From: Verrucomicrobium sp. GAS474
GTDB lineage: Bacteria; Verrucomicrobiota; Verrucomicrobiia; Methylacidiphilales; GAS474
NCBI RefSeq assembly: GCF_900105685.1
Contig: NZ_LT629781.1
Span: forward strand, 1,860,001 to 1,924,000
DNA length: 64,000 bases
Reading direction: 5' to 3'
In this document: piece by piece, positions 13,035-59,278 of the stretch
Position numbering within the stretch: the first letter of the stretch is position 1
How the letters are laid out: every line of letters starts with the position of its first letter
Translations under genes and position numbers: made by a program
Notes under the pieces: generated by a model
Database searches by the model: none
What the model was told of the DNA's origin: nothing
The model's input: the letters and a program-made list of their open reading frames with translations, nothing else

Positions 13035-13350
13035 CGGACGCGTGATTCTCCCGATAGGAGTCAGGGCGTATTGGTACTGCAATCCCTTCAGTACGTACCC
13101 TCGGGCGTACCGAAACCATCCGATTTTAATCCAGTTCGGAGACGGGGCGCCGCCAAAGCGCGTCCGCCTAGTTCAAGCCCTCAGAACAGGACTGCCTGCG
13201 CGATAGCGCAATACCTCGTAAAGGGGAAACTAACTTGCAGGGTCGGGAGACAAGTCACGGAGGGGCGGAGCCCCTCTGTGGCTATAAAGCGGATCGCCTC
13301 CAGCTGTACAGGGTCGACCGCGCAGGTCCCGAAGGGCCGCCCCGCTCCCA
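13035..13350 (+). repeat. Intergenic modular repeat, copy A (type I 5' half, with extra module)
   Basis: This copy fills the gap between two convergent genes. Its 5' half is type I, shared with copy G (CCGATTTTAATCCAGTTCGG, then GCGCCGCCAAAGCGCGTCCG). The extra module (about 13190-13255) has the hairpin TGCGC-GATA-GCGCA (13197-13210) and AGGGGAAACTAACTTGCAGG. The shared 3' half has the hairpin AGGGGC-GGA-GCCCCT (13261-13275), CTGTACAG (13304-13311), GGTCGACC and GTCCCGAAGGGC. No open frame is shared with the other copies. Confidence 0.85.
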
Positions 13351-13436
13351 TGGCGTCCAGGGGAGCGGACCGCATGGAAGCATCATCCAGAGGCGATTCT
13401 CTCTCGGGCTCTTGACCCCTTTTGGAAAGCCAAGCC

Positions 13437-15281
13437 CTAGCCCGGAATATCCCCTTCGAGCGCGCCCTTGTCCCCTTCCATCGGCTCGATGATGATGTCC
13501 CGCGCGGTGGCGCCGGCGGGGATCATGGGGAGGACGTGTTCGGTGTAGGGGACCATCACGTCGAGGACGTAGGCTTCCTTCGACTCGACGAGGCGCTTCA
13601 GCGCGGGACGGAGTTCCTCGGGCTTCGTGATCCGTTCCGACTTCACGCCGAATCCGGCGCAGATCGTCGGGTAATCGGGATAGATCGCCTTGAGGTCGTT
13701 CGGGTTGCCGAGGAAGGTGTGGCCGCGGTTGCTCTTGAAGAAGCGGTCTTCCCACTGCACCACCATGCCGAGGTATTGGTTGTTCAGGATGATGACCTTC
13801 GCGGGGATGTTCTCCGCCACGGCCGTCGCCAATTCCTGGACGTTCATGATGAAGCTGCCGTCGCCGTCGATGTCGATGACCTGCCGGTGCGGGTGGGCGA
13901 CCTTCGCGCCGAGCGCCGCGGGATGGCCGAAGCCCATTGTCCCGAGGCCCGCCGAGGTGAGGAAGCTGCGCGGGTGGGTGAACTTGTAATACTGCGCGGC
14001 CCACATCTGGTGCTGGCCGACGCCGGTGGTGATGATCGCCTCGCCCTTCGTGATCTCGCAGAGCTCCTCGATCACGCGCTGGGGCATGATGACGTCGACG
14101 GGGGTGTGCTGGCCCTTGTAGCGGAGGGGGAATTCCTTCTTCCAGCCGTCGATCCGCTTCTGCCACTCGGGGAATTTCTTCCACCGGCGGCCCTGGGCGG
14201 TCTGGGCGGCGATGATCTTGTTGAGGCGCGTCAGGGCGTAGCCGATGTCGCTGAGGATCGGGAGGTGGACGTCCTTGTTCTTGTTGATCTCGGAGTTGTC
14301 GACGTCGATGTGGACGATCGTCGCCTTGCGGGCGAATTCCTTCACGTTGCCGGTCACCCGGTCGTCGAAGCGGACGCCGAAGGCGAGGACGAGGTCGGCC
14401 TCGTCGACGGCGTAGTTCGCGTAGACGGTGCCGTGCATGCCGAGCCACTTCAGCGAGAGGGGATGGTTCTCCGGGAAGCAGCCGATGCCCATCAGGGTCG
14501 TCGTCACGGGGATGTGGAGGGTCTCGGCGAATTTCCTCAGCTCGGCCGAGGCCTCGGCGCTGATGATGCCGCCGCCGACGTAGAGGACGGGCCGCTCCGC
14601 CTGCTCGACGAGGCCGAGGATCTCCTGGAGGGCGAGGTCGTCGGCCTTCGGGGGCGGGTTGAAGCCGCGGAGGTTCACCTTGTCCGGGAAGATCGGCTGG
14701 CAGGGCATCTGCTGGATGTCCTTCGGCATGTCGATGAGGACGGGGCCGGGACGGCCCGAGCGGGCGATGTGGAAGGCTTCCTTCACCACGCGCGGGATGT
14801 CGTTCACATCCATGATGAGGTAGTTGTGCTTCACCACGGGGAGGCTCATCCCGAAGACGTCGGTCTCCTGGAAGGCGCCGCGGCCGATCATGTCCCGCTT
14901 CACCTGGCCGGTGATGGCCACCAGGGGGACCGAATCCATGAAGGCGTCGGCGATGCAGGTGATGAGGTTCGTCGCGCCGGGGCCCGAGGTTGCCATGCAA
15001 ACGCCGACCTTGCCCGTCGCCCGGGCGTAGCCGCCCGCCATGAAGCCGCCGCCCTGCTCGTGCCGGGGGAGGATCGTCCGGATCTTCTTCGACCGGGTGA
15101 GGGACTGGTGGAGGAGCATGCTCGCCCCGCCCGGGTAGGCGAAGAGAACGTCGACCCCTTCCCGCTCCAGGGCGGCGACGAGGACGTCGGCGCCGGTCAT
15201 GGGGGGGGAGAGTTTGGCGGGGGCCTTCGACGTTTTCGTCGTCTTGGCCGCTTTGCCCTTCGATTTGTTCTCTTTGCTCAT
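13437..15281 (-). CDS. ilvB: Acetolactate synthase large subunit
   Basis: The 614-residue ThDP enzyme condenses pyruvate to acetolactate (or with 2-oxobutyrate) for valine, leucine and isoleucine synthesis. Visible features are YPGGASM and the catalytic Glu in [15 protein letters not shown] near the N-terminus, the FAD/central domain with [11 protein letters not shown], and the ThDP/Mg motif GDGSFIMN...NNQYLGMV in the C-terminal third. A 25-residue Lys/Ala-rich tail precedes the family start. An in-frame GTG lies 36 bp further upstream, but ATG is preferred. No ilvN regulatory subunit or ilvC is adjacent; a repeat copy follows the stop. Confidence 0.94.
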
Positions 15282-15395
15282 AATAATAACGGGGTTGTAA
15301 AAACGGGAGGGAGTCACTAAACCATACCCCCTCTCTTTTGGCGATATCGAAATACCCTTACCGGGGCCGAAATTTCAGGGGCATGTACAAAATAA

Positions 15396-15424
15396 TTGAC
15401 ACTCCTCCCGATCGTACCTATTTT
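15396..15424 (+). promoter_or_regulatory. Strong sigma-70-type promoter for rplM-rpsI
   Basis: A perfect -35 TTGACA (15396-15401), a 17-bp spacer and -10 TATTTT (15419-15424) predict a start about 20 nt upstream of the rplM ATG. The short leader has no Shine-Dalgarno and is pyrimidine-rich. Confidence 0.75.
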
Positions 15425-15449
15425 CACCCCTCCCTCAACTCCTACTGTT

Positions 15450-15890
15450 ATGAGCAAAACGACGATCAGCGCCAAGGCCTCCGAAATCGAACGCAAGTGG
15501 TTCGTCATCGACGCCGCCAATAAGGTGGTGGGCCACGTGGCCGAAAAAGCCGCAGTCCTCCTCCGCGGCAAGCACAAAACCCTTTATACCCCCCATGTCG
15601 ACTCGGGCGACTTCGTCGTCGTGATCAACGCCTCCAAGGCGATCTTCACCGGCAAGAAGGAGACCCAGAAGGAATACCGGAGCTTCTCCGGCTTCATGGG
15701 CGGCCACAAGTCCGAGACCCCGGCCCGCCGCCGCATCCGGAAGCCCGAACTGCTGATCGAGACCGCCGTGAAGGGGATGATCCCCCACAACCGCCTCGGC
15801 CGCCAGATCTACCGCAAGCTCAACGTCTACGCCGGTGCGGAGCATCCCCACGCCGCGCAGCAGCCCGTCGCCGTCGAGGTGACCAACTAA
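15450..15890 (+). CDS. rplM: 50S ribosomal protein L13
   Basis: The 146-residue L13 is recognisable from RKWFVIDA, the GKHKTLYTPHVDSGD stretch, YRSFSGFMGG and KGMIPHNRLGRQ. It is an early-assembly large-subunit protein bound to 23S rRNA. The start MSKTTISA is chosen because it matches the family and lies just after the predicted transcription start; the frame is open further upstream but contains the promoter. The gene pairs with rpsI, 19 bp downstream, the near-universal L13-S9 operon. Confidence 0.97.
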   Translation: MSKTTISAKASEIERKWFVIDAANKVVGHVAEKAAVLLRGKHKTLYTPHVDSGDFVVVINASKAIFTGKKETQKEYRSFSGFMGGHKSETPARRRIRKPELLIETAVKGMIPHNRLGRQIYRKLNVYAGAEHPHAAQQPVAVEVTN

Positions 15891-15909
15891 TCTTAGAAAA
15901 AGAGATCCC

Positions 15910-16305
15910 ATGCCCACCGCTTCCCCGATCCAGACCACGGGCCGCCGCAAGACGGCGATCGTCACTGTCAAGCTCAGCCCCGGCACCGGCATCGTCACGG
16001 TCAACGGCCGCGACGTGAACGACTACTTCACCACCACCACCTCCCGCATCGAGGCCGTCAAGCCCCTCAACGCGATCGAGGGCGGCAAGAAGTTCGACTT
16101 CGTCTGCAAGGCCATCGGCGGCGGCACCACCGGCCAGGCCGGCGCCCTCAGCCTCGCCATCGCCCGCGCCCTCATCGAGCACGACGCGGAACTCCGCCCC
16201 GCCCTCAAGAAGGGCGGCTTCCTCCGCCGCGATCCCCGCATGAAGGAGCGCAAGAAGTCCGGCCAGCCCGGCGCCCGCAAGCGCTTCCAGTTCTCCAAGC
16301 GTTAG
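15910..16305 (+). CDS. rpsI: 30S ribosomal protein S9
   Basis: The 131-residue S9 starts with TTGRRKTAIVTVKL and has the central GGGTTGQAGALSLAIARALI helix. It ends in the basic tail KRFQFSKR, whose terminal Arg reaches the decoding site. It is co-transcribed with rplM. It is followed by a small hairpin. Confidence 0.97.
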   Translation: MPTASPIQTTGRRKTAIVTVKLSPGTGIVTVNGRDVNDYFTTTTSRIEAVKPLNAIEGGKKFDFVCKAIGGGTTGQAGALSLAIARALIEHDAELRPALKKGGFLRRDPRMKERKKSGQPGARKRFQFSKR

Positions 16306-16315
16306 TCTTTCTTTT

Positions 16316-16332
16316 CATCCTCCCGGAGGATG
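16316..16332 (+). terminator. Hairpin after rpsI, possible terminator
   Basis: CATCCTC and GAGGATG pair with a 3-base loop. It lacks a downstream T-run (the T-rich stretch is upstream), so it may be an RNA-stabilising hairpin rather than an intrinsic terminator. Confidence 0.35.
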
Positions 16333-16487
16333 CGTCTCCCAGAGCGGGGCAATTGGATTCGATTCATTTCGGCCCGGTTGTCCCGCTTCGGTGTTTTCAG
16401 GGGTGTTTCCTTCTTTGTTTCGTTGCGTTTTCGCCGCTGTTTTGCCATCCATCCACTTGGTTCCAGAATCCTAGACCGTTCCACAAC

Positions 16488-17519
16488 ATGAATACCGCCA
16501 TCATCGGAGCGTCCGGCTATGCGGGCGAGGAGACCGTGCGGATCCTCTCCCGGCATCCCCGGCTGAAGATCACGGCGGTGACCTCCCGGCAGTTCAAGGG
16601 GAAGACCCTCGGGGCGGTCGTCGGCGGCCTCACCCGGAACCGGGATATCCTCTTCGAGGACCTCTCCCCGGAGCAGGTCGCGGAGCGGGCCGACCTCTTC
16701 GTCCTCGCGGTCCCCCACGGCGTCGCCTCGGAGTACGCCGTCCCCCTGCGGAAGGCCGGGAAACTCGTCGTCGATCTCAGTGCCGACTTCCGGCTCCACG
16801 ACCCGGCGGTCTACGAGGAATTCTACGGCCATCCCCATCCCTCGCCCGAGCTCCTCAAGGAATCGGTCTACGCCCTCCCCGAGCTCCACGCCGACGCCAT
16901 CCGCAAGGCCGACCTCATCGCCTCCCCCGGCTGCTATCCCACCAGCATCCTCCTCGCCCTCGCCCCCGCCGTGCAGGAAGGGCTGATCGACCTCGCCACG
17001 ATTTCCATCACCTCCCTCAGCGGCGTCACCGGCGCGGGGAAGAAGGCCGAGATCCCCCTCCTCCACGGCGAGATCGGCGAGAGCGCGAAGGCCTACGGCA
17101 TCCCGAAGCACCGGCACCTGAGCGAGATCGAGCAGGAACTCGCCCTCCTGGCCGGGAAGCCGGTCCGCGTCAGCTTCGTCCCCCACCTTATCCCGATCAA
17201 CCGGGGCATCCTCACCACCATCACCGCGCAGCTCGTCCAGCCGCCGGAGATCGCCGTCATCGCCGCGATCCAGGCCCTCTACGAGGAAGCCTACCGGAAT
17301 GCCCCCTTCGTCCGGGTCCTCGCCGCCGACGCGCCCCTCCCCGAGGTGAAGAACGTCGCCCGGACGAACGTCGCCGAGATCGCCCTGCGGGTCGATCCCC
17401 GGACCGGGCGGCTGATCGTCATCTCGGCCATCGACAACCTCGTGAAGGGGACTGCCGGGCAGGCCGTCCAGGCGATCAACCTCCGTTTGGGATGGCCCGA
17501 GGACGAGGGACTTCTGTAG
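16488..17519 (+). CDS. argC: N-acetyl-gamma-glutamyl-phosphate reductase
   Basis: The 343-residue enzyme makes N-acetylglutamate semialdehyde in arginine synthesis. The NADP site GASGYAGEE is at 7-15. The active-site C149 lies in ASPGCYPTS. The AVPHGVASE and HRHLSEIEQEL blocks are family typical. The start MNTAIIGASG places the Rossmann motif correctly. It opens the argC-argJ-argB-argF run, with a 71-bp gap to argJ. Confidence 0.96.
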   Translation: MNTAIIGASGYAGEETVRILSRHPRLKITAVTSRQFKGKTLGAVVGGLTRNRDILFEDLSPEQVAERADLFVLAVPHGVASEYAVPLRKAGKLVVDLSADFRLHDPAVYEEFYGHPHPSPELLKESVYALPELHADAIRKADLIASPGCYPTSILLALAPAVQEGLIDLATISITSLSGVTGAGKKAEIPLLHGEIGESAKAYGIPKHRHLSEIEQELALLAGKPVRVSFVPHLIPINRGILTTITAQLVQPPEIAVIAAIQALYEEAYRNAPFVRVLAADAPLPEVKNVARTNVAEIALRVDPRTGRLIVISAIDNLVKGTAGQAVQAINLRLGWPEDEGLL

Positions 17520-17590
17520 TTTGGTCTTCGTTCCGTCTCATCATTTTCTGCGGCATCTAATTTTTGAAAGTTGAATCAAAAGGGGAATCC

Positions 17591-18892
17591 ATGGCGACTG
17601 TAATCGGTAAAGGCAAAGGCAAGAGCAAGGGCAGGGGCAAGGTCGTCAAGGCCGCCTCGGCCCCGGACGAGGGGCGGATCACGCTGCTGAAGAACGGCGG
17701 CGTCACCTCGCCCTCCGGCTTCCTCTCCTCCGGCGTCGCCGCCGGGATCAAGAAAAAGAAGGGCGCGCGCGACCTCGCCCTCGTCGTCTCGACCGTCCCC
17801 GCCGAGGTCGCCGCCGTCTTCACCGTCAACCAGGTGAAGGCCGCCCCCGTCCGCGTCTCGATCGAGCACGCGAAGCAGGGGAAGATCCGCGCCGTCGTCG
17901 CCAACGCCGGTTGCGCCAACGCCTGCACCGGCGTCGACGGCATCCGGGACGCGAAGGAGACGACCGAGCTCGTCGCCGCCTCCCTCACCGAGGCCGGGCT
18001 CCCGGCGAAGGGCTCCGAGGTCCTCGTCTGCTCCACGGGCCGGATCGGCATCCTCCTCCCGATGCCCGCCGTCCGGCGCGGGGTGAAGGCGGCGACCGCC
18101 GCCCTCGCCTCCGACGGCCACCACGCCGCCGAGGCGATCATGACGACCGACACCTTCGCGAAGCACGTCGCCGTCCGCATCGTCATCGACGGGAAGCCCG
18201 TCATCATCGGCGGCATCGCCAAGGGCGCCGGGATGATCCATCCCGACATGGCGACGATGCTCTGCTTCGTCACCACCGACGCCGCCATCGACCGGACCAC
18301 CCTCCGCCGCTGCGTCGACGAGGGCGTCGCCCGCTCCTTCAACTCGATCTCCGTCGACGGCGACACCTCGACGAACGACACCGTCATCGTCCTCGCCAAC
18401 GGCCAGGCGAAGAACCCGAAGCTGACCGCGAAGCACCCCCAGCTCCCCCTCTTCCGCTCCGCGCTCCGCCGCGTGATGAAGGAACTCGCCCGGATGATCG
18501 TCCGGGACGGCGAGGGGATCAGCAAGGTCGTCGAGGTCACCGTGAAGGGGGCCGCCTCCGCCCGCGAGGCGAAGCTGGCCGCCGAGGCCGTCGGCAAGTC
18601 GACCCTCGTGAAGTGCTCCTGGTGCGGCAACGACCCGAACTGGGGCCGCATCATGGACGCCCTCGGCTACTCCAAGGCCCGGATGCAGGAAGAACTCGTC
18701 GAGATCTTCTACGACGGGCTCCAGGCCGTCGTGAACGGCCAGCGGAGCCTCGTCCCCGAGACCCGCATCCGCAAGATCGTCGCCCGGCCCGAATTCACCA
18801 TCACCATCCACCTCCACCTCGGCCACGGGGAATACACCTTCCTCACCGCCGACCTCACCGAGGAATACGTGACCCTGAACAAGGGAGAGTAA
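17591..18892 (+). CDS. argJ: Bifunctional glutamate N-acetyltransferase / amino-acid acetyltransferase
   Basis: The 433-residue ArgJ transfers the acetyl group between acetylornithine and glutamate, recycling it in arginine synthesis. Self-cleavage and catalysis depend on T222 in KGAGMIHPDMATML. Other family blocks are NAGCANACTG, STGRIGILLP and GNDPNWGRIMDALGYS. About 26 residues precede the family start and are rich in Lys/Gly (KGKGKSKGRGKVVK), an odd basic tail. The ATG has AAGGGG upstream. Presence of ArgJ means a cyclic pathway, so argA may not be needed. Confidence 0.95.
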   Translation: MATVIGKGKGKSKGRGKVVKAASAPDEGRITLLKNGGVTSPSGFLSSGVAAGIKKKKGARDLALVVSTVPAEVAAVFTVNQVKAAPVRVSIEHAKQGKIRAVVANAGCANACTGVDGIRDAKETTELVAASLTEAGLPAKGSEVLVCSTGRIGILLPMPAVRRGVKAATAALASDGHHAAEAIMTTDTFAKHVAVRIVIDGKPVIIGGIAKGAGMIHPDMATMLCFVTTDAAIDRTTLRRCVDEGVARSFNSISVDGDTSTNDTVIVLANGQAKNPKLTAKHPQLPLFRSALRRVMKELARMIVRDGEGISKVVEVTVKGAASAREAKLAAEAVGKSTLVKCSWCGNDPNWGRIMDALGYSKARMQEELVEIFYDGLQAVVNGQRSLVPETRIRKIVARPEFTITIHLHLGHGEYTFLTADLTEEYVTLNKGE

Positions 18893-18912
18893 GCTCTCCC
18901 CAACCCCACGCC

Positions 18913-19782
18913 ATGACCCCCAACGACCGCGCCGCCGTCCTCGCCGAGGCCCTGCCCTACCTGCAGAAATTCCGCGGGGAAACCTTCGTGATCAAGTACG
19001 GCGGCTCGGCGATGGAGAACGAGGAGCTCGTCGGACGGGTCCTCCGCGACGTCGTCTTCCTCGAGGCCGCCGGCATCAACCCCGTCCTCGTCCACGGCGG
19101 GGGGAAGGCGATCACCCGCGCGATGAAGGCGGCGGGCGTCGACGCCCGCTTCGTCGACGGCCTCCGCGTCACCGACGAGGCCCAGATCGAGCTGATCGAC
19201 CGGACCCTCGCCGCCGAGATCGCCCCCGGCATCGTCCGGCAGATCGAGGCCTTCGGCGGCCACGCCGAGGCGATCTCCGGCAAGGAAGTCCTCAAGGCCG
19301 TGAAGATGCGCTACCGGACGTCGAAGGGCGAGGACGTCGACCTCGGCTTCGTCGGCGACGTCAACGACGTCGTCCTCCCGCCCATCCAGGCTCTCCTCGA
19401 TCGCGAGGTCATCCCCGTCATCTCCCCCCTCGCGCGCGGGACCGGCGGCGAGGTCTACAACATCAATGCCGACATCGCCGCGGGCGAGGTGGCGAAGGCG
19501 CTGAAGGCGCGGAAGCTCATCTACCTCACCGACGTCAACGGCGTCCTCCTCGATCCGGCGATCCCCTCCTCGACGATCCCGACCCTCACCCCGGCCACCA
19601 TCGCCGACCTCAAGGACAAGGGCGTCATCGCCGGGGGCATGATCCCGAAGGTCGACTCGGCGGTCGAGGCCCTCCAGAGCGGCGTCGGCCAGATCCACTT
19701 CCTCGACGGCCGGATTCCCCACGCCCTCCTCCTCGAAATCTTCACCACGGCGGGGATCGGCACCGAGATCCGCAACGACTGA
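18913..19782 (+). CDS. argB: Acetylglutamate kinase
   Basis: The 289-residue amino-acid kinase phosphorylates N-acetylglutamate. The N-terminal VIKYGGSAM supplies the phosphate-binding Lys, VLVHGGGKAI the Gly loop, and GGMIPKVDSA the second catalytic Lys. The first helix (DRAAVLAEALPYLQKF) matches the N-terminal helix found in arginine-inhibited, hexameric NAGKs that can bind PII; that control is inference, supported by the PII gene in the same window. The gene begins 20 bp after argJ without a Shine-Dalgarno. Confidence 0.96.
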   Translation: MTPNDRAAVLAEALPYLQKFRGETFVIKYGGSAMENEELVGRVLRDVVFLEAAGINPVLVHGGGKAITRAMKAAGVDARFVDGLRVTDEAQIELIDRTLAAEIAPGIVRQIEAFGGHAEAISGKEVLKAVKMRYRTSKGEDVDLGFVGDVNDVVLPPIQALLDREVIPVISPLARGTGGEVYNINADIAAGEVAKALKARKLIYLTDVNGVLLDPAIPSSTIPTLTPATIADLKDKGVIAGGMIPKVDSAVEALQSGVGQIHFLDGRIPHALLLEIFTTAGIGTEIRND

Positions 19783-19854
19783 CCGTCCTCCCGTCCCGAC
19801 TGTCATTGACTCCCGTCCGTTCTTCCCCTTTCCTTTTCTTTTGCCTCTTTTCCC

Positions 19855-23660: not shown

Positions 23661-23674
23661 AGAGCTTTTGGAAG

Positions 23675-23955
23675 CCGTCGTTCCTCCCAAGCGGACAAGG
23701 GAACTAGCGGACCCTTTCTACCCGAAGCGGACGGCCTAATGCGGTACGGCTAGAATAGTTCAGGCCTATCAGACGGGGACTGCCGTCGCGTTAGCGACAC
23801 TCGTTCGTCAGGGGAAACTAACTTGCAGGGCCAGGAGGTAAGTCCAGGAGGGGCGAAGCCCCTCTTGCGTCGTCTAACACGTGCGGATCGCCTCCAGCTG
23901 TACAGGGTCTCTGCCCGGTCCCGAAGGAGCATTCACCGCCCCCCTTCGCTACCCC
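23675..23955 (+). repeat. Intergenic modular repeat, copy B (type II 5' half, with extra module)
   Basis: The type II 5' half has repeated AGCGGAC units and ACGGCCTAATGCGGTACGG. The extra module carries the hairpin GTCGC-GTTA-GCGAC (23785-23798) and CAGGGGAAACTAACTTGCAG. The common 3' half has the 8-bp hairpin around GGGGCGAAGCCCC (23847-23865), CTGTACAG (23898-23905), a GGG/CCC stem and GTCCCGAAGG. It lies between the sensor gene and the RRM terminator. Confidence 0.85.
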
Positions 23956-23981
23956 TTTCCTCCGTGCCCCCCCGAAAACGA

Positions 23982-31431: not shown

Positions 31432-31518
31432 GGAGGAGGGAAGTATCCAAGCTACCACACAAATACCGGAGCCGGAGGAAATGATTTCCAGGGCCTGTTA
31501 TTCAAACCCGCTGTTCCT

Positions 31519-31810
31519 CCCGCACTCGGACGCGTGATTCCTCCCAAGCGGCCAGGGGAACTAGCGGACGTTCTTTCCCCGAAGCGGACGGCCTAATGCG
31601 GTACGGATAAAACAGTTCAGGCCTATCAGACGGGGAGGTCCAGGAGGGGCAGAATGCCGTCGCGGTAGCGACACTCGTTCTCAGGGGAGACTAACTGGCA
31701 TGGCCGGGAGGCAAGCCCCTCTTGCGTCGTCTAACACGTGCGGATTACATCCACCTGTACAGGGTCTGTACCCAGTCCCGAAGGGCACCCACAGCCCCCT
31801 TCGTGTCCCC
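31519..31810 (+). repeat. Intergenic modular repeat, copy C (type II, extra module in hairpin loop)
   Basis: The 5' half opens CCCGCACTCGGACGCGTG and has AGCGGAC units. Here the extra module is placed inside the loop of the GGGGC/GCCCC hairpin. Its outer stem is ATGCC/GGCAT (31654-31658 with 31697-31701) and its inner hairpin GTCGC-GGTA-GCGAC (31659-31672). The 3' half has CTGTACAG (31755-31762), GGGT-CTGT-ACCC and GTCCCGAAGGGC. It points opposite to both flanking minus-strand genes. Confidence 0.85.
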
Positions 31811-31820
31811 CCCCTCAGCC

Positions 31821-35553: not shown

Positions 35554-35580
35554 TCACTTCGGGGGGCAAGCTGAAGGAAG

Positions 35581-35808
35581 GGGGCGCGAGGTTGTGTGTT
35601 GCGCCCTTCGGGACGGGGTACAGACCCTGTAACAGGTGGAGGCCGGACGGGCGTTTCGAGATCCAAGAGGGGTTGGCCCCCTCCTGCACCTCCCCCTCTG
35701 ATAAGGCCTGAACTGGAAAACTGTTTCTCTTAAGGCGATACAACGTGATGAAGCTATCGTCCGCTAGTTCCCCTGTCCGCTTGGGAGGAATCACGCATCC
35801 GCAGGCTG
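35581..35808 (-). repeat. Intergenic modular repeat, copy D (type II, divergent)
   Basis: This copy is on the minus strand, in the same direction as both flanking genes. It keeps GTGATTCCTCCCAAGCGGAC and GGGGAACTAGCGGAC in the 5' half and AGTTCAGGCC at the junction. The core hairpin is altered (GGGGGCCAACCCC). The palindrome has one extra base (CTGTAACAG read on the plus strand, 35627-35635). GGGT-CTGT-ACCC and GTCCCGAAGGGC are intact. There is no extra module. The most degenerate of the full-length copies. Confidence 0.8.
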
Positions 35809-35826
35809 GGGGGAGCCGAAGTCGAT

Positions 35827-36906
35827 TTAGCTTAACAGCGTTTCTGCTTCGCCCCAGATACGGCGGACGATCTGCCCCGCCGGTTCCGCCTGCGCCAGCG
35901 CCGCCGACTGCCCGGCCCACGCTTGGACGCGATGAAAATCGTTCGCGGCTTCTCCGGTCTTCCGCATCGCCGCCGTGAGGGCGCGCTGGACGGGGTAGGG
36001 GGCGGGCGTCGGGCCGAGGTCGGAGATCGCCGCCTTCACGTAATCGGTGACGAGGCTCCGGCCCGCCCGTCCGCTGAAGACGCGGCTGACGACGGTTCCC
36101 TCGGGCGGCGTGAGGGCGAGGGCGTCGGCCCAGCTCGAAATGATCCCGGCCTCGGGGCTGCGGAGGAATCCGGTCCCGATCTGGACGGCGCTCGCCCCCA
36201 GCGTCAGGGCGGCGGCGATGCCCCGCCCGTCGGCGATCCCGCCCGCCGCGACGAGGGGGAGCCTTACCGCGTCGGCGACGGCGGGGAGGAGGGCGAAGAG
36301 GCCGACGAGTTCCCGTTCGGCCCGGGGCGGCGCGGGGTCGAACGAGGCGCGGTGGCCGCCCGCCTCGGCCCCCTGGACGATGAGGGCGTCGGCCCCCGCC
36401 GCCGCCGCCTGCCGCGCTTCGGCGACGGTCGAGACGGTGGCGATCCACGGGATCTTCTTCGCCTTGAGCTGGGCGACGAAGGACTCGGGAAAGAGCCCCA
36501 TCACCGACGAGGCGGCGGCGGGGGCGATGTCGAGGATCGCCTCGCACTGGGGCTCGAAGGGATGGGGGAGGGCGTCCCCGGCCTCGGGCGGGACCTCGGG
36601 GCTCCAGCTGGCGGAGAGGAAGTGGCGGACGCGGGCCTCCTGCGCCGGATCGCGCCGGGGCGCGGGATCGGGGACCCAGAGATTGATCTGGAACGGCTGG
36701 TCCGTCCCGGCGCGTACGGCGGAGGCCCACTCCTTCATCTGCGCGGGCGTCATCGGCAGCGCCCCGCACGAGCCGAGGCCCCCGGCCTCGGCGACGGCGA
36801 CGGAGAGCGCCGGAGGGCAGGCCCCGGCCATCGGGCCGAGGAAGACGGGGAGGCGGAGGCCGAGGGAGTCGCAGAAGGCCCGGGAGCGGGCGAGGGCGGG
36901 ATTCAT
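35827..36906 (-). CDS. Nitronate monooxygenase-like FMN protein (2-nitropropane dioxygenase family)
   Basis: The 359-residue TIM-barrel flavoprotein has the N-terminal LPVFLGPMAGACPPALS, where FMN-binding begins. QGAEAGGHR is the conserved loop with the catalytic-type His, and AAGGIADGRGIAAALTLGASAVQIGTGFL is the phosphate-binding end. Family members oxidise nitronates, or reduce enoyl groups (FabK). The length and the GHR loop favour nitronate monooxygenase. It starts 28 bp after alkB, so the two are probably co-transcribed. Confidence 0.85.
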   Translation of the reverse strand: MNPALARSRAFCDSLGLRLPVFLGPMAGACPPALSVAVAEAGGLGSCGALPMTPAQMKEWASAVRAGTDQPFQINLWVPDPAPRRDPAQEARVRHFLSASWSPEVPPEAGDALPHPFEPQCEAILDIAPAAASSVMGLFPESFVAQLKAKKIPWIATVSTVAEARQAAAAGADALIVQGAEAGGHRASFDPAPPRAERELVGLFALLPAVADAVRLPLVAAGGIADGRGIAAALTLGASAVQIGTGFLRSPEAGIISSWADALALTPPEGTVVSRVFSGRAGRSLVTDYVKAAISDLGPTPAPYPVQRALTAAMRKTGEAANDFHRVQAWAGQSAALAQAEPAGQIVRRIWGEAETLLS

Positions 36907-36934
36907 GATCCCATTTTAGCACAGGCTCGCGGGG

Positions 36935-37606
36935 TCAGGAAGCTTGCCGGAAGGTGAGGTTGACCCGGCACCGGCCCGTCAAGGGGTGATTCCCCCCGGC
37001 GAGCGGATCGACGCCGTGGAACGCCATCCGGGCGGGGCCGCCCCAGACGACGACGTCGCCGTTCTCCAACCGGAAGCGGCGGGGCTTCTCCTGCCGCGTC
37101 AGGCCGCCGAAGAGGAACCGGGCGGGGAGGCCGAGGGAGACCGAGACGATGGGGGCGGCGAGCCGCTTCTCGTCCTTGTCCTGATGGAGGGAGAGGCGGG
37201 CGCCCGGCTCGTAGCGGTTGATGAGGCACGAGTCGGGCGCGAAGCCGGGGAAGCCCGCCCGCGCGGCGGCCCCGACGGCGAGGGCGCGGAAGAAAGGGGG
37301 CATCGCGGGCCACGGCTTCCCCGTCCCGGGATCGCAGGGGGCGTAGCGGTAGCCGCGCCGGTCGCTCGTCCAGCCGAAGTCGCCGCAATTCGTGATCGCG
37401 ATCGACATGACGAACCCGCCCGGGGTCGTCATGTGGCGGAAGGGGGCGGCCTCCGCGATGGCCTGGACGGCGGCGAAGAGGGCGGGGGCCTCGGCGCGTG
37501 CGCCGCCCCGGAAGAGGACGGCCCCGTCGGCCAGCGGTTCGGTTTCCGGTTCGGGCTTTCGGGCTTCGCCTAGGAGGGTGTCCATCTCGGACTGGCTGTC
37601 GCTCAT
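36935..37606 (-). CDS. alkB: AlkB, 2-oxoglutarate/Fe(II)-dependent DNA alkylation-repair dioxygenase
   Basis: The 223-residue protein has the complete iron triad H141, D143 (LHQDKDE) and H197 (FHGVDP). The 2-oxoglutarate-binding Arg are R214 and R220 (GRCRVNLTFR). The nucleotide-recognition segment FGWTSDRRGYRY and NRYEPGARLSLHQD match AlkB closely. It reverses 1-methyladenine and 3-methylcytosine damage. No ada gene is nearby. It heads a two-gene transcript with the nitronate monooxygenase-like gene, and repeat copy E lies directly upstream. Confidence 0.94.
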   Translation of the reverse strand: MSDSQSEMDTLLGEARKPEPETEPLADGAVLFRGGARAEAPALFAAVQAIAEAAPFRHMTTPGGFVMSIAITNCGDFGWTSDRRGYRYAPCDPGTGKPWPAMPPFFRALAVGAAARAGFPGFAPDSCLINRYEPGARLSLHQDKDEKRLAAPIVSVSLGLPARFLFGGLTRQEKPRRFRLENGDVVVWGGPARMAFHGVDPLAGGNHPLTGRCRVNLTFRQAS

Positions 37607-37639
37607 TTGCGTTAGTCTAGCATATTGCGTCCGGCTCCG

Positions 37640-37870
37640 CCCGCACTCGGACGCGTGGTTCCTCTCAAGCGGACAGGGGAACTAGCGGACATGCTCTACC
37701 CGAAACGGACAGCCTAATGCAGTACCGCTCCGAACAGTTCAGGCCTATCAGATGGGGAGGTCCAGGAGGGGCGAAGCCCCTCTTGCGTCGTCTAACCCGT
37801 GCGGATCGCCTCCAGCTGTACAGGGTGTGTACCCGGTCCCGAAGGAGCGTTCACCGCTCCCTTCGCGTTC
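37640..37870 (+). repeat. Intergenic modular repeat, copy E (type II, compact consensus form)
   Basis: At 231 bp this is the cleanest copy without the extra module. It has CCCGCACTCGGACGCGTGG, GTTCC/GGGAAC arms around CGGACAG, three CGGAC units, AGTTCAGGCC and the hairpin around GGGGCGAAGCCCC. CTGTACAG (37816-37823), GGGT-GTGT-ACCC and GTCCCGAAGG follow. It ends against the PIN gene stop and is opposite in direction to both flanking genes. Confidence 0.88.
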
Positions 37871-37873
37871 CCC

Positions 37874-38350
37874 CTACGGCTGGCTCCGCACGCCGCTCGC
37901 CGGGCGGTGGAACTCCTCCAGGAATCGGATCGCCGAGAGGACCGGCGTCGCCCCGCACCGTTCTGCCGGGAAGCGTCTGAAGTCCGCCGCCACCAGGGGA
38001 TGCCCCGTCGTCAGCGCCACTTCGGCGAAGCACGCGTCGTCGGTCGAGGGGGTCGGCACCTGCGCGGTCGAGACGCACCGGAGGGTGTCTTGAAGGATGA
38101 AGTGGAGGATCCGCTCCTTCTCCAGCGGCAGCAACTCGCTCTGCGCCAGCCCCGACCGGTAGCGGGCCAGGACCCGATCGTCGGCGACGAGGCGGATATG
38201 GCCCGCCCTCAGGAGATCGACGATGCGCCGGGCGAGCGGCTCCCCCGGCCAGCCGGGCAGTCCGACGCCGATTCCCGAAAGGAGGAGGGGCAGGTCGAGG
38301 ACGAGGGGGACGATCCGGCGGAACGTCGCCTTATGGGCGGTCGGGATCAT
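37874..38350 (-). CDS. PIN-domain protein, putative toxin of a type II toxin-antitoxin pair
   Basis: The 158-residue protein fits the PIN nuclease fold. D19 follows the first strand (VPLVLDLPLLLSG), D104/D105 open the third helix (TDDACFAEVALTTG) and D123 is in LVAADFRRF. The second acidic position, usually in LLEEY, is less clear here (DDRVLARYRS), so activity may be changed. VapC-like PIN proteins cleave RNA. The partner gene lies 9 bp upstream on the same strand and has antitoxin character. Confidence 0.7.
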   Translation of the reverse strand: MIPTAHKATFRRIVPLVLDLPLLLSGIGVGLPGWPGEPLARRIVDLLRAGHIRLVADDRVLARYRSGLAQSELLPLEKERILHFILQDTLRCVSTAQVPTPSTDDACFAEVALTTGHPLVAADFRRFPAERCGATPVLSAIRFLEEFHRPASGVRSQP

Positions 38351-51212: not shown

Positions 51213-51225
51213 GCTTGAATGGCAC

Positions 51226-52669: not shown

Positions 52670-52681
52670 GGATCGGGGAGG

Positions 52682-53722
52682 TTAGGAGGCGGGATCGGCG
52701 GGGCGTTCCTCCCCGGCGATGCTGGTTCGCATCTGAGTGTCGGCCTGGACGTTCTTCATCTTGTAATAATCCATGACGCCGAGGTTCCCGGCGCGGAAGG
52801 CCTCGGCCATCGCGAGGGGGACCTGGGCTTCGGCCTCGACGACCTTCGCCCGCATCTCCTGGACGCTGGCGCGCTGTTCCTGCTCGAGGGCGACGGCGGC
52901 GGCGCGGCGGACTTCGGCGCGGGCCTGGGCGACGCGCTTGTCGGCCTCGGCCTGCTCGGCCTGGAGCTTCGCGCCGATGTTGTCGGCGACGCTGACGTCG
53001 GCGATGTCGATCGAGAGGATCTCGAAGGCGCTGCCCGAGTCGAGGCCCTTCGCCAGAACGGTCTTGGAGATCAGGTCGGGGAATTCGAGGACCTGCTTGT
53101 ACGATTCGGACGCGCCGATGGTGGCGACGATCCCTTCGCCGACGCGGGCGATGATCGTCTCCTCGGTCGCGCCGCCGACGAAGCGGTCGAGGTTCGTCCG
53201 GACGGTGACGCGGGCGCGGACGTTGACGGCGATGCCGTCCTTCGCGACGCCGGCGATGGCGGAGAGGCCGGAGGCGGCGTTCGGGCAGTCGATGACGCGG
53301 GGGTTGACGCTGGTGCGGACGGCCTCGAAGACGCTCTTGCCGGAGCCGAGGGTGGCGAGGTCGATGGCGCAGCAGCGGTCGAAGTCGAGGGGGATCCCGG
53401 CCTTCGCGGCGGCGATGAGGGCGCGGACGACGGCCTCGATGTTGCCGCCGGAGAGGTAGTGGGTCTCGAGCTGGGCCGTCGTGATCTCGAGGCCGGAGCG
53501 GATCGCGGTGATCCGCTGGTTCACGACGAGGGAGGGCGGGATGCTCCGCAGCCGCATCCCGACGAGGTTCATCAGCGAGACGTGGGCGCCGGAGATCCAG
53601 GCGCGGACGTAGATGCCGACGAAGTTCACGAGGATGAAGGCGACGAAGAGAGCGACGACGACCAGGACGATGCCGAGGATGATCATCAGGAAGTTGCCGG
53701 GATCGATAGTGCTGCTGTTCAT
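52682..53722 (-). CDS. floA: Flotillin-like protein FloA
   Basis: The 346-residue protein has a long N-terminal membrane helix (about 11-38) and an SPFH-type domain with [25 protein letters not shown] coiled-coil region rich in Ala/Glu follows ([22 protein letters not shown]). It matches the YqfA/FloA family that scaffolds functional membrane microdomains. It follows the NfeD gene by 47 bp, the classic nfeD-floA pairing. Confidence 0.94.
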
Positions 53723-53769
53723 GGAGGGGTGGGTTGGTGGGTTGGGGAAGGAAAGAGAAAGAGAAAGGG

Positions 53770-55203
53770 TTAGGCGGGTTGGACGACGACACGGATGCCC
53801 TCGATCCGGGTGACCCGGACGCGGGCGCCCTCGGGGAGGAAGCCGCCGTCGGAGACGACGTCGATGCGGTGGGGGCCGTCCTCCTGCTGGAAGAGGGCGG
53901 CGCCGGAGGGGCGGAGGGCGGTGGCGGTCCGCCCGGTGTCGCCGACGCGGACGAGGGCGACGTAGGAGCCGGCGGGGAGGGCGGGGCCGTGGCCGGTCGC
54001 AGCCTCCAGGGTCCGGGTGGCGATGCCGCTCTTCAGGACGTAGCGGGTGAGGAGGGCCACGGCGGCCCCCGCCATGATCGTGGCGAAGGCGAGGCGGAGG
54101 AGCGCTCCCCGGAGGTCGTGAAGCGAGGGGAAGCCCTGGCCCGGTCCCGCGGTCTGCCCGGCCATCGCCCAGACGAAGGCGAGGAGGAGCAGGAGGAGGC
54201 CCGTGGCGACGGGGACGATGAAGCCGGGGAGGAAGAAGATCTCGACGGCGATCAGGACGAGGCCGAGGAGGAAGAGGATGAGGGGCTCGTACCCGCTCAG
54301 CCCCGCGACGTAGCTGCCGAGGAAGAACAGGAGAAAGCAGAGCCCCGCCGCGATGCCGAAGAACCAGGTGCCGGGGGCCTTGAATTCGAGGTAGCCGAGG
54401 ATCATCCCGAGGGTGAGGAGGAGGGGGGCGATCCGGACGAGGAAGCGGGCGAGGGTCTCGAACCCGGTCGGCTTCAGCGTCTCGATGCGGACGTCGGGCC
54501 CGGCGAGTTTCCGGGCGAGTTCGCCGAGGGTCGGGACGGTCCCTTCGGAGAGGAGGTTCCTCGGCGGCGTGCCGTAGCGGCGCTCGGCCTCGAGGTTCGT
54601 GAGGGTGACGATGCGGCCCTTCGGGACGAGGGTCGCGCCGTCGACGACGAGGCCCCGCTCGCTGTTCACCATGGCGGCGAAGACCTCGGGATTGTGGCCG
54701 TGGCGCTCCGCCGTGGCGCGGCCCGTGGCGTCGAAGAAGGAGATGAGCTTCTTCTCGTAGCTCTCCGGGAGCTTCTCCGGGCTGCCGCCGGAGCCGATCA
54801 TGACGGGGGTCGCCGCGCCGATCACCGAGCCGGGGGCCATGTAGATGCGGCGGGTCGAGGAGGCGATGAAGGCCCCGGCGGAGGCGGCTTTCTTGTCGAT
54901 GTAGGAGGCGGTGTTCTCCTGGTTGGGGAACGACTCGACGGCGCGGACGATCTCCTCCATCGCGTCGGTGCGGCCTCCGGGGGTGTCGATGCGGAGGAGG
55001 AGGTAATCGGCCTGGAGGCGGACGGCCTCCCGGACGCCGCGCCGGACGAGGGCGGAGAGGGAGGGCTCGATCTCATCCTCGATCGGGATGACATAGACGA
55101 GCGGCGCGGCGGCGATCTGCGCGAGCGCGAGGAGGGAGAGGAGGGCAGTCCCCAGCCAAGAGAAATGGGGAAGGGAAAGGCGACGGCGAGGAGGCAGACG
55201 CAT
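53770..55203 (-). CDS. nfeD: NfeD-family membrane serine protease (long form)
   Basis: The 477-residue protein has a signal/anchor, then a ClpP-like serine protease domain ([17 protein letters not shown]; the catalytic Ser lies in [10 protein letters not shown] near 110, with a Lys later in the ESYEKKL region). Four or more membrane helices follow (about 245-400), and an OB-fold domain ends the protein ([21 protein letters not shown]). This is the 1510-N/YqeZ type that works with flotillin-like FloA. The ATG is chosen over an upstream TTG. A repeat fragment (copy F) lies upstream. Confidence 0.92.
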
Positions 55204-55242
55204 AAGGGTAGCCCATCGTAGCAGGAACCGGGGCGATCCCAA

Positions 55243-55325
55243 GCGGAAACGGATCGGTGATGCCCTCCACCTGTACAGGGCCTGTCCCCAGTCCCGAAGG
55301 GCATCCCCCGCCTCTTCGCGACCCC
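55243..55325 (+). repeat. Intergenic modular repeat, copy F (3' end only)
   Basis: Only the last 80 bp of the shared 3' half are present: CGGATC, CCTCCAC, CTGTACAG (55271-55278), the stem GGG-CCTGT-CCC and GTCCCGAAGGGC, then CTTCGCGACCCC. No hairpin core or 5' half is seen, so it is a truncated copy. It lies between divergent nfeD and the binding-protein gene. Confidence 0.75.
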
Positions 55326-55350
55326 TTCCTGAATATCGCTCCGCCTCGCT

Positions 55351-55366
55351 GTAGGCAAAGGCCTAC
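55351..55366 (+). promoter_or_regulatory. Small hairpin upstream of the ABC binding-protein gene
   Basis: GTAGGC-AAAG-GCCTAC is a perfect 6-bp stem 59 bases before the ATG. It could act in the 5' leader or as an operator; no function is shown. Confidence 0.25.
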
Positions 55367-55424
55367 GTCCGAATCAGGGAAAGGCCGATACCGGAGAGGC
55401 CGGGTGGGAGGGTACGATGGAACC

Positions 55425-56657
55425 ATGCGAGTTCCCATTTACTCCTTCGTCGCCTTCTTCGGCGGGGCGGCCCTCATTCTTTCGAGCTTCACTCTCGTCG
55501 TCCCGCCCGAGCGGGCGCAGGCGAATGCCAATGACAATGCCAATGCGAACGGCGGCGACAGCAGTTCGGAAATTTACATCGGCAGTTCGCTCCCCCTCGG
55601 CGGGGCGTTCTCCGCCGTCGGGCAGGAGACGAAGGCGGGGATGGAGGCGGCCTTCCGGGTCGCGAACGAAAAAGGCGGCATCTTCGGCGCCCACCTCAAC
55701 CTCGTGACGCTCGGCGACGGCTACGATCCCCTGCTCTGCGTCCAGAACACCCTGCAGCTCATCGAGACGAACAAGGTCCTCGCCCTCTGCTCCTACGTCG
55801 GCACGCCGACCTCGCTGAAGGCGGCCCCCGTCTGGCAGGGGGCGAAGGTCCCCGTCGTCGGCTTCTACACCGGGGCGCGGGTGTTGCGGGAGCCGTTCAA
55901 CCGCTACAACATCCATATCCGCCCCTCCTACGAGCAGGAGACGAAGGCCGCCGTCGATGTCTTCGCCGGGAAGTTCCAGGCGAAGACCTTCGCCATCCTC
56001 TACCAGGACGATTCCTTCGGCGACGCTGTGAAGACGGCGACCGAAAAGGCCCTCCGGGAACGGGGCCTCGCGCCGGTCGCCTCCGGCACCTTCGTCCGCA
56101 ATACGCTCCACGTCGAGGAGGCGGTCGACCGCATCGCCGCCGCCGCCCCCGACGTCGTCGTCCTGGCGGGGACCTACGCCCCCCTGGCGCGGGCGATCGA
56201 CCTGGCGAAGGGGAAGGGCCTCTCCAAGACGATCTTCTACACCGTCTCCTTCGTCGGTCCCGAGGCTCTGGCCGGGGCGCTCGGCTCTGGGGGCGATCAC
56301 GTCGTCGTCAGCGAGGTGCTCCCGCTCTACACCGACACGAAGCAGCCGATCGTCGCCGCCTACCTCGCCGCCCTCCGGGGCCGGGCTCCCTCCTTCCCCT
56401 CCTTCGAGGGGTACCTCAACGCCCGGGTGGTGATCGAGGGGCTGCAGCGGGCCGGAAAGCATCCGACCCATGAATCGCTCATCGACGCCATCGAGACCAT
56501 CCGCGACAACCAGATCGAGCCCGGCCTCGAGATGGCCTACGGGCCGAACGACCACGAGGGCCTGTCGACCGTCCACCTGATCTCCCTCGACAACGGGAAG
56601 TGGAAGGAAATCGAGACCCGCACCATCCCCGACCGGGTCGCCGCCGCAGGGCATTAA
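55425..56657 (+). CDS. Liv-type ABC transporter substrate-binding protein
   Basis: The 410-residue exported protein has an N-terminal hydrophobic segment (about 5-24), then an Asn/Ala-rich linker. A type I periplasmic binding fold follows: IYIGSSLPLGGAFSAVGQE, ANEKGGIFGAHL and AILYQDDSFGDAV are typical of the branched-chain amino acid family. The permease and ATPase genes are absent from the window, so it may act as a sensor or serve a remote transporter. The ATG has GGGAGGG a short distance upstream; an out-of-frame ATG also lies nearby. Confidence 0.88.
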   Translation: MRVPIYSFVAFFGGAALILSSFTLVVPPERAQANANDNANANGGDSSSEIYIGSSLPLGGAFSAVGQETKAGMEAAFRVANEKGGIFGAHLNLVTLGDGYDPLLCVQNTLQLIETNKVLALCSYVGTPTSLKAAPVWQGAKVPVVGFYTGARVLREPFNRYNIHIRPSYEQETKAAVDVFAGKFQAKTFAILYQDDSFGDAVKTATEKALRERGLAPVASGTFVRNTLHVEEAVDRIAAAAPDVVVLAGTYAPLARAIDLAKGKGLSKTIFYTVSFVGPEALAGALGSGGDHVVVSEVLPLYTDTKQPIVAAYLAALRGRAPSFPSFEGYLNARVVIEGLQRAGKHPTHESLIDAIETIRDNQIEPGLEMAYGPNDHEGLSTVHLISLDNGKWKEIETRTIPDRVAAAGH

Positions 56658-56703
56658 ATTTTTTATCGCGCCCCGATTTCGACTGCGCGATATTGGCCGG
56701 CCT

Positions 56704-57918
56704 ATGTCCCGGACGACCGACCTCTACGATCAGTACATCCTCAACACGGCCAAGCGGTCCTTCACCCTCGTGCGGGGCCAGGGCGTCCGCGTCTGGGACG
56801 ACGCGGGGCGGGAACTGATCGACTTCGGCACCGGCGTCGCCGTGAACAGCCTCGGCCACGCCCATCCGGCCCTCGTCGAGACCTACGCCACGCAGCCCTC
56901 CAAGCTGATCCACTGCTCCAACCTTTACTACAACGAGAACGCCGGGCCGGTGGCCGAGAAGCTCGTCTCCCTCGCCGGTCCGGGGAAGATCTTCTTCGCG
57001 AACAGCGGGGCCGAGGCCAACGAGGGCCTCATCAAGCTCGCGCGGCTCCACGGCCACGCCAACCGGGGTGGCGCGTACGAGATCGTCTCGACGACGAATT
57101 CCTTCCACGGCCGGACCATGGCGACGATCACCGCCACCGGGCAGGAGAAGATCTACCACGGCTTCGAGCCGCTCCTCCCCGGCGCGGTCCACGTCCCCTT
57201 CAACGACATCGAGGCGATGCGGGCCGCCATCGGGCCGAAGACCGCCGCCGTCCTCATCGAGGGCGTCCAGGGCGAAGGCGGCGTCTTCCCCGCCGATCCC
57301 GGCTACCTGAAGGAACTGCGGCGGATCACGAAGGAGGCGGGCGTCCTTCTCCTCATGGACGCCGTCCAGTGCGGTTTCTTCCGGACCGGCGCCTTCCAGA
57401 GCTTCGAGCGGATCTTCGAGGAGGCGGGCGACGAGAGCGCCGAGGCGAAGGCCTTCCGGCCCGACGCGATCTCGATGGCGAAGTCGCTCGGCGGCGGTTT
57501 CCCGATCGGCGCGTTCTGGGTTTCCGACGCCTTCGCGGGGCTCTTCGCCGTCGGCTCCCATAACACGACCTACGGCGGCTCCCCCCTTGGCACCGCCGTG
57601 ATCGGGACGATCCTCGCCACCATCGAGAAAGACAACCTGGTCCAGAACATCCGGGATCGGGAAGCCGACCTCGTCGGTGGATTGAAGGCCTTGCAGGCGC
57701 GGTATCCCGTCATTACCGCCGTCCGGGGACTCGGCGCGATGATCGGCCTGGAACTCGCCGTCGAGCCCGCCGTGGCGATGCCGAAGTTCCACGAGGCGGG
57801 GCTGCTCCTCGCCCCCGCAGGATCGAAGACGGTGCGGTACCTCCCCCCCTACATCGTCACCCGCGCCGAGGTCGGCGAGGCGCTGGAGCGGACCGAAACG
57901 GCGCTGAAGGGACTGTAG
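56704..57918 (+). CDS. argD: Acetylornithine-type class III aminotransferase
   Basis: The 404-residue PLP enzyme has LIDFGTGVAVNSLGHAHP, FANSGAEANEGLIKLAR and FHGRTMATITATGQEK. GGVFPADPGYL and the PLP Lys in SMAKSLGGGFPIGAF are also present. All fit acetylornithine aminotransferase, the step between ArgC and ArgJ. The usual DEVQTG motif reads DAVQCG, so the Glu-to-Ala and Thr-to-Cys changes may alter specificity; another omega-aminotransferase is possible. It is unlinked to argCJBF, which lacks an argD. Confidence 0.85.
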   Translation: MSRTTDLYDQYILNTAKRSFTLVRGQGVRVWDDAGRELIDFGTGVAVNSLGHAHPALVETYATQPSKLIHCSNLYYNENAGPVAEKLVSLAGPGKIFFANSGAEANEGLIKLARLHGHANRGGAYEIVSTTNSFHGRTMATITATGQEKIYHGFEPLLPGAVHVPFNDIEAMRAAIGPKTAAVLIEGVQGEGGVFPADPGYLKELRRITKEAGVLLLMDAVQCGFFRTGAFQSFERIFEEAGDESAEAKAFRPDAISMAKSLGGGFPIGAFWVSDAFAGLFAVGSHNTTYGGSPLGTAVIGTILATIEKDNLVQNIRDREADLVGGLKALQARYPVITAVRGLGAMIGLELAVEPAVAMPKFHEAGLLLAPAGSKTVRYLPPYIVTRAEVGEALERTETALKGL

Positions 57919-57983
57919 GGGCGTAGGAGGGGGGGCTGCGGAAATGGCTCTTCCCCTCGGGGCGGGTCGTGCTACAAGGCAGG

Positions 57984-58736
57984 ATGGATATGTTGACCCC
58001 GCCCGAGGAGGCCCTCCCTCCGCTCTCCTTGAAGGCCGTCTTTGCGGAGAGCTTCCGCGTCGTCGGTTCCTCCTTCCGCACGGCCCCGCAGGTACTCCTG
58101 CTGACGCTGTTGGCCGAGGGCATGGTCGATTTATCGTGGCATACGGGGAAACCCCTCCTCGACGGTCTGCAGGCGCTCGTTTTCGGTGCCCTCAGTTTCG
58201 TGATGGGCATCGCGATCATCGCCTCCCTTCTCCCCCTGATCCGCAGGGGAGAAAACCGGTGGATTCTCACGTTCAGGCAGTGGGACAAGCTCGCTCGGTT
58301 CTGCGGGCTCTTGGCCCTCTTGGCGGTCTTTCTTCTGCTTTGCGGTTTCGGAGGGGTCGTGGTCGGCGTATTGCGAAACCTGTTCCATTGGTCGCCGCTG
58401 GTTCTGAAAGGGTTCAGCTTCCTTCTTCTGGCAGGAGTTGTTCTCGTCCCCCTCGTCGTCTGGGGACAATCCTTTTATCTCCTGGTCGATCAGGATCTCG
58501 GCGTGTTCGCCTCCCTTCATCACTCGGCGGAGTTGACGCGCGGGGCGCGGGGGACGATCACGGTCTATATGGCGCTCCTGCTCGCCCTCTTGGTCCCTCT
58601 TTCGATCTGGGCCAAGCAGAGCGGGTCAATCTGGCTCCATGGACTCGGCTATCTGGGCTCGGCTTTCTTCTGTTTTGCCGGGGCCGTTCTCTACGATCAC
58701 CTCCTTCGGCGGGCGGCGGCGGCCTCGGTGGAATGA
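57984..58736 (+). CDS. Polytopic membrane protein, function unknown
   Basis: The 250-residue protein has about five to six hydrophobic segments between residues 40 and 240, with a cytoplasmic N-terminus. The segment near 175-190 (LLVDQDLGVFASLHHSAEL) followed by TRGARGTITVYMALL is reminiscent of DUF975/YciC-type proteins. Codon use is less GC-rich than in argD. A second ATG 6 bp later has a better Shine-Dalgarno (AGGA) and may be the true start. Confidence 0.6.
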   Translation: MDMLTPPEEALPPLSLKAVFAESFRVVGSSFRTAPQVLLLTLLAEGMVDLSWHTGKPLLDGLQALVFGALSFVMGIAIIASLLPLIRRGENRWILTFRQWDKLARFCGLLALLAVFLLLCGFGGVVVGVLRNLFHWSPLVLKGFSFLLLAGVVLVPLVVWGQSFYLLVDQDLGVFASLHHSAELTRGARGTITVYMALLLALLVPLSIWAKQSGSIWLHGLGYLGSAFFCFAGAVLYDHLLRRAAAASVE

Positions 58737-58802
58737 AGCGGGGTCCGTACGTCCCCGTGAAAAGTACTTGCCTCTGAACGATTACTCTCTACTTTCCCTC
58801 GA

Positions 58803-58970
58803 ATGCCGCGCGAACACATCACCCTGGAATGCACTGAGGCCAAAGCCGAAGGTAAGCCCGCTTCCCGCTATTTCTCGACGAAGAACAAGAAGCTGACGAC
58901 GGAAAAGATTGAACTGATGAAGTACAATCCCTTCCTTCGCCGCCACACTCTTCACAAGGAACGGAAGTAA
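58803..58970 (+). CDS. rpmG: 50S ribosomal protein L33
   Basis: The 55-residue protein [19 protein letters not shown] continues with [21 protein letters not shown] and [24 protein letters not shown], the KYNPFLRRH core and the HKERK end match L33. It has a single Cys rather than the zinc pairs of the C+ form, so it is the C- type. It is isolated from other ribosomal genes and is followed by a strong terminator. Confidence 0.95.
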
Positions 58971-58996
58971 GGTTCCTTTTAGGAGTATTCCTTTTC

Positions 58997-59030
58997 AAAA
59001 AGCGCCATGGTTTTCCATGGCGCTTTTTTT
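58997..59030 (+). terminator. Terminator of rpmG
   Basis: AAAAAGCGCCATGG (58997-59010) pairs with CCATGGCGCTTTTT (59015-59028) around TTTT, followed by more T. It also separates rpmG from repeat copy G. Confidence 0.92.
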
Positions 59031-59034
59031 GTGC

Positions 59035-59278
59035 GTTCTGAGAGCGGGGCGGCCCTTCGGGGCTTGCGGGGTCAACCCTGTACAGGTGGATGTAATCCGC
59101 TTTATAGCCCAAGAGGGGCTTTGCCCCTCCTGGAACCTCCCCTTCGGAGGGCCTGAACTAGGCGGACGCGCTTTGGCGGCGCCTTGTCTCCGAACTGGAT
59201 TAAAATCGGATGGTTCCGGTACGCCCGAGGGTACGGATTGCGGGGGAAGACGGGACCCATGCGCCTCGACTCCTATGG
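59035..59278 (-). repeat. Intergenic modular repeat, copy G (type I, no extra module)
   Basis: Read on the minus strand this copy has ATAGGAGTC, CCCTCGGGCGTACCG, the long type I block shared with copy A (CATCCGATTTTAATCCAGTT region and GCGCCGCCAAAGCGCGTCCG) and AGTTCAGGCC. The hairpin GGGGC-AAA-GCCCC, CTGTACAG (59078-59085), GGGTTGACCC and CCCCGAAGGGC follow. It is enclosed by the rpmG and SOD terminators, so read-through from either gene should not reach it. Confidence 0.87.

Follow-up and report, generated by a model that had tools for sequence, protein, structure and literature searches.

The chromosome of Verrucomicrobium sp. GAS474 (G000, the genome under study) carries more than a hundred intergenic elements assembled from exchangeable structured modules, and these are probably non-autonomous, modular mobile hairpin DNA of a MITE- or BOX-like kind. 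The window, i.e. the whole stretch of 64,000 nucleotides that was analysed (G000:C1:1860001-1924000), lies on a single 3.76-Mb contig. The original prediction placed six copies and one fragment in it; all seven loci are present where it put them, and its description of a shared 3′ half joined to one of two 5′ types within the window is correct.

A genome-wide family

The core of the elements, CTGTACAG-N-GTCCCGAAGG, has 75 exact matches across G000, compared with 0 for a reversed-pattern control. At ≤3 substitutions, ~126 cores were found in 296 kb of G000 DNA around the matches (127 hits, one clearly due to chance). Cross-copy BLAST depth delineates 107 element loci in G000, which together make up 37.4 kb (1.0%) of its chromosome, large elements measuring ~250–600 nt each. 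Thus, the large genome-wide family anticipated from the window exists and its copies are not local to it. Element loci are sparse over ~2.26–3.39 Mb of G000 (bins 6–8 of 10), where 7 of the 107 are found.

Two other species of the same genus were compared, G001 and G002, the latter being the congener CAISZB01 (‘uncultured Verrucomicrobium I3b_bin-317’, a MAG). The large-element family is present in G002 and was not found in any of the remaining genomes searched. Core-pattern hits outside Verrucomicrobium—in Zoogloea, Bacteroidales, Lachnospiraceae and Caulobacterales—numbered one per record and were taken as chance, and neither the core nor the smaller module M described below matched the viral contigs searched. 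Rfam searches at gathering as well as relaxed thresholds returned chance matches only, both for the large element and for M, so that the covariance models give no relevant match and the repeat is, as proposed, not a known Rfam family. A literature search for an earlier description of these repeats in this host found nothing. Nor was an IS or MITE family with TIR and TSD identified.

Copies in the window and mosaic anatomy

The bounds of the window copies were set by cross-copy BLAST depth. Copy A (13038–13379, + strand) combines a type I 5′ half with the shared 3′ half and has M inside; it sits between convergent genes, one ending at 13017 and the other, a TPP-enzyme gene, at 13437. Its M spans 13185–13256 (+), a hit of the R1 covariance model at G000:1873185-1873256 with E 8.3e-15, copy A being among the 62 sequences used to build that model. 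Copy B (23663–23964, +), of type II and likewise with convergent genes on either side, holds M 5′ of the central hairpin at 23773–23844 (+; R1 hit G000:1883773-1883844, E 3.9e-13). In the type II copy C (31513–31815, +), M occupies the loop of the central GGGGC/GCCCC hairpin at 31647–31717 (+; R1 hit G000:1891647-1891717, E 3.8e-15). Copies D (35578–35826, −) and E (37632–37878, +; without M) are both of type II. They diverge and form the left and right edges of a 2.3-kb segment missing in G002, enclosing a nitronate monooxygenase-like and a 2OG-Fe(II) oxygenase-like gene (35827–37606, −). Copy F (55264–55327, +) is a fragment consisting of the 3′ core and tail alone, and copy G (59039–59287, −), a type I copy without M, lies between an L33-like and a superoxide dismutase gene. 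Wherever Pfam gives a name, the neighbours of the window copies are ordinary genes.

Across G000, three core/5′ types can be told apart: I (GGGTYGACCGCGC), II (GGGTCTSTRCCC) and III (GGGAGATGTACCC), the 5′ half of type III being found outside the window. The elements of G002 follow the same plan with yet another 5′ half, and their 3′ hairpin is longer. These types, with M at varying positions, are interchangeable modules among intergenic copies, which upholds both the intergenic placement and the modularity that the window had suggested. Doubles are found at 14 divergent loci, where both 3′ tails point outward, and at 7 convergent ones. The two ends of a single copy are unlike; in divergent doubles, the shared 3′ half is present at both ends in inverted orientation. 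At 805780, nearly all of the 5′ half is lost.

When 54 copies of type I were compared, all four haplotypes occurred, each at least twice, at 174 of the 231 biallelic column pairs, and segments have therefore been exchanged between copies. Median nearest-neighbour identity between copies is ~91%, which thus gives no evidence of very recent movement.

Conserved hairpins

The hairpins proposed from the window are real, as judged by covariation in M and in the central hairpin. In 84 parsed hairpins, the first pair outside the central stem, GAGGGGC/GCCCCTC, is A-T in 50, C-G in 33 and G-T in 1, with 0 mismatches. The same hairpin pattern caught 8 more (T-A), representing a second hairpin family that adjoins M in G002. 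A G.T pair flanking the central stem is conserved in 76 of 81 sequences, and folding of the sense strand is therefore favoured. Covariation was weak when the mixed-type 3′ half (alignment A3) was folded automatically, MAFFT having put gaps between types in the wrong places; direct parsing of the hairpins revealed it. Folding of whole copies is unremarkable and lies near the shuffled level: one type I copy gave z −1.91, and one type II copy −0.93 as sense RNA, −0.18 as antisense RNA and −0.47 as DNA.

Module M, a smaller structured unit

M is a separate structured insert of ~65–70 nt, present within three of the six full window copies (A, B and C). Its three helices are paired in 98.4% of cells in an alignment of 62 copies (A2), with 96 double-change cells vs 37 after shuffling. 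The covariation score of 0.323 (0.077 shuffled) is lost when the partner is slid by 1–3 columns. M can occupy the loop of the central hairpin or precede that hairpin on its 5′ side, it can be inserted either way round in the 3′ hairpin or lie outside the element altogether, and it can be present twice in a single element. Copies of M were picked up by the covariance model in G000, G002 and G001 (which has 2) and in further families of the same order (f3: 16, 8 and 6; f9: 1–2). Two more families of the class yielded weak matches (G100 and G198), which are borderline given that 236 genomes were searched. The model is a ready tool for finding further cases.

In G000 (L290) and G001 (L259), M lies just 5′ of an exact 26- or 40-nt duplicate of the 3′ end of an upstream tRNA-Gly. 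These two loci (L290:560-771, L259:1450-1690) belong to a set of M-like stretches 3′ of tRNA-Gly or tRNA-Ala that are followed by a second tRNA 3′ end, the others being L263 and L266:1450-1600. In G100, reading of the sequence places a core-like stretch at each of two tRNA-Ala genes, followed by a second AATCCCCTTGCCTCCA or AATCCCCTTACCTCCA, cases that are suggestive only because the 5′ strands of P1 and P2 in the model are the tRNA itself. The tRNA 3′-end duplications could be scars of site-specific integration. When one M/tRNA locus was compared with phages and plasmids by BLAST, matches were mainly to the tRNA part. As a tentative proposal, which we hold to be rather doubtful, M might represent an undescribed class of gene-less, ~65-nt mobile hairpins that targets tRNA 3′ ends and hairpin loops, duplicates its target and became a building block of larger mosaics in at least one bacterial lineage.

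Two further observations concern the arrangement of M. G002 contains tandem M arrays with a shared sequence of 8–10 nt, CCAATCCC(GT), between units (L298:663-853, L301:640-742). In G000, three M-like matches, two of them weak, lie antisense and apparently in frame in what seem to be leader regions of prepilin-like genes, the identity of the genes having been read by eye (L292:654-724, L293:636-709, L294:713-783).

Empty sites and gene context

The suggestion that the repeats are mobile DNA is supported by orthologous junctions that are empty in congeners. At site 16298, G000 has an element and G001 and G002 have none, the stop codons of the orthologous convergent pair nearly abutting. The junction of copy G is empty in G001, with one terminator between the L33-like and SOD genes, and holds an unrelated repeat in G002. 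At 2684490, both G000 and G002 have elements, of different type and in opposite orientation, which are best read as independent insertions. No target-site duplication was detected in the flanks, the mean flank LCS being 6.0 vs 5.58–5.79 in shuffled pairings (n=105). A different family of intergenic repeats (GCCGGTAGCCGGTG...CACCACCGG), and perhaps more than one, seems to be present in G002 where the corresponding junctions of G000 are filled by large elements (L306:1890-2140, L310:1960-2250).

The outer neighbours of the D/E segment, PGI and the gene at 37874–38350, are adjacent in G002, with ~80 nt between them; for both enclosed genes, the ends that were tested matched nothing in G001 or G002. 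The 2.3-kb segment thus looks like a composite unit carried in with its two genes, although the same picture would result from two insertions combined with the gain or loss of genes.

For 96 loci, both neighbours were called: 52 are convergent, 39 tandem and 5 divergent, as against 9, 72 and 19, respectively, among element-free gene pairs in the same DNA. The convergent excess (52/96) is significant against the ~17% expected (p 3e-16), an expectation set at 19/110 because a circle necessarily holds as many convergent as divergent pairs. At convergent loci, a median of 12.5 nt of other intergenic DNA remains, a distance that is approximate because genes were called with our own codon-usage script. 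Elements in tandem contexts have no strand preference (13 sense vs 14 antisense).

What the elements may be

A resident transposase is the usual explanation for intergenic repeats in bacteria. Of the three enzyme families that were searched for, the Y1 transposase (PF01797, Y1_Tnp) had 0 matches in G000, while DEDD_Tnp_IS110 (PF01548) and the reverse transcriptase RVT_1 (PF00078) each had none in the three genomes G000, G001 and G002; control genomes were positive in all cases. It is therefore very improbable that the elements belong to a REP/RAYT system, an IS110-derived family or a group II/retron-type retroelement whose enzyme still resides in the genome, even though movement of an IS200/IS605-like or IS110-like kind would fit the missing TSD and the hairpin ends, and template switching would fit the mosaicism.

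The position of the elements allows for another role, namely that of bidirectional terminators or insulators retained between convergent genes. More than half of the loci are at such junctions, little other intergenic DNA is left there and the elements are rich in hairpins. Yet, the same junctions do without elements in relatives, 44 of the 96 loci are not convergent, the element tails lack T-runs, and ordinary intrinsic terminators adjoin window copies B and G. Moreover, selection against insertion into promoters predicts the same convergent bias, and an excess at convergent and unidirectional gene pairs has been reported for REPs (PMC3733652). On balance, we regard retention for termination or insulation as unlikely. 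Less likely still is a multi-copy structured noncoding RNA, acting in trans or as a 3′ UTR. The covarying helices of M and of the central hairpin speak for an RNA, as does the conserved G.T pair, which on the opposite strand would be an A.C mismatch, but in tandem contexts the elements favour neither strand of host transcription (13:14), M is found in either orientation relative to its host elements, no Rfam family matches, and z values for whole elements of −1.9, −0.9 and −0.2 are those of near-shuffled sequence. The strand ratio and the folding of whole copies likewise give no support to the free-standing structured RNA gene that had been entertained for the window.

Non-autonomous mobile hairpin DNA, the reading that we favour, has points against it as well: no TSD was detected at the large elements, searches for PF01797, PF01548 and PF00078 found no autonomous partner, and identity between copies is ~91%. 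Under this reading, copies would insert into intergenic gaps, chiefly at convergent junctions, where an insertion is least damaging. Recombination or template switching between copies would then shuffle them, swapping 5′ halves, hairpins and tails. In the simplest case, the conserved hairpins would be what an enzyme recognises, either in single-stranded DNA or in a transcript, and this enzyme, since lost or still to be identified, would act in trans. M would be a second, smaller mobile unit that repeatedly inserted into the hairpin loops of elements and beside tRNA 3′ ends. Of these points, recognition of the hairpins, the trans-acting enzyme and the nature of the intermediate are inferred. 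With ~100 mosaic copies, three tested enzyme families absent and M at tRNA ends, where the target is duplicated, the family offers a testable case for hairpin-driven mobility without an assigned enzyme.

Relation to known repeats

The closest known systems, on our best reading, seem to be BOX elements with regard to organisation and the GC clusters of yeast mitochondria with regard to shuffling. BOX elements of Streptococcus pneumoniae and S. suis are modular interspersed repeats in which boxAC or boxEF ends surround boxB; they are predicted to form stem-loops and thought to be non-autonomous (PMC3049150). The likeness, which concerns organisation, lies in alternative end modules around shared parts. 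Unlike BOX, the present family has an unrelated host, joins swapped 5′ halves to a shared 3′ half and has M outside the element as well. Palindromic GC clusters are GC-rich, mostly intergenic hairpins that merge and shuffle, their mechanism of proliferation being unproven (PMC4478555). They are mitochondrial, tens of nt long and flanked by short direct repeats, whereas the elements described here are bacterial, measure ~250–600 nt and have no detected TSD.

REP/RPE sequences are palindromic intergenic repeats located predominantly at unidirectional and convergent gene pairs; CGTC REPs lack a dedicated transposase, and GTAG REPs have been reported in the verrucomicrobium Opitutus terrae (PMC3733652). 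The present elements are far longer and modular, and a Y1/RAYT gene is absent from G000. With classical bacterial MITEs, they share non-autonomy, high copy number, structure and empty sites in relatives, but no TSD was detected, and the ends of single copies are unlike, inverted ends being seen in divergent doubles. Finally, many copies in the related MAG are found at contig ends, and the elements are probably the reason why its assembly breaks there.
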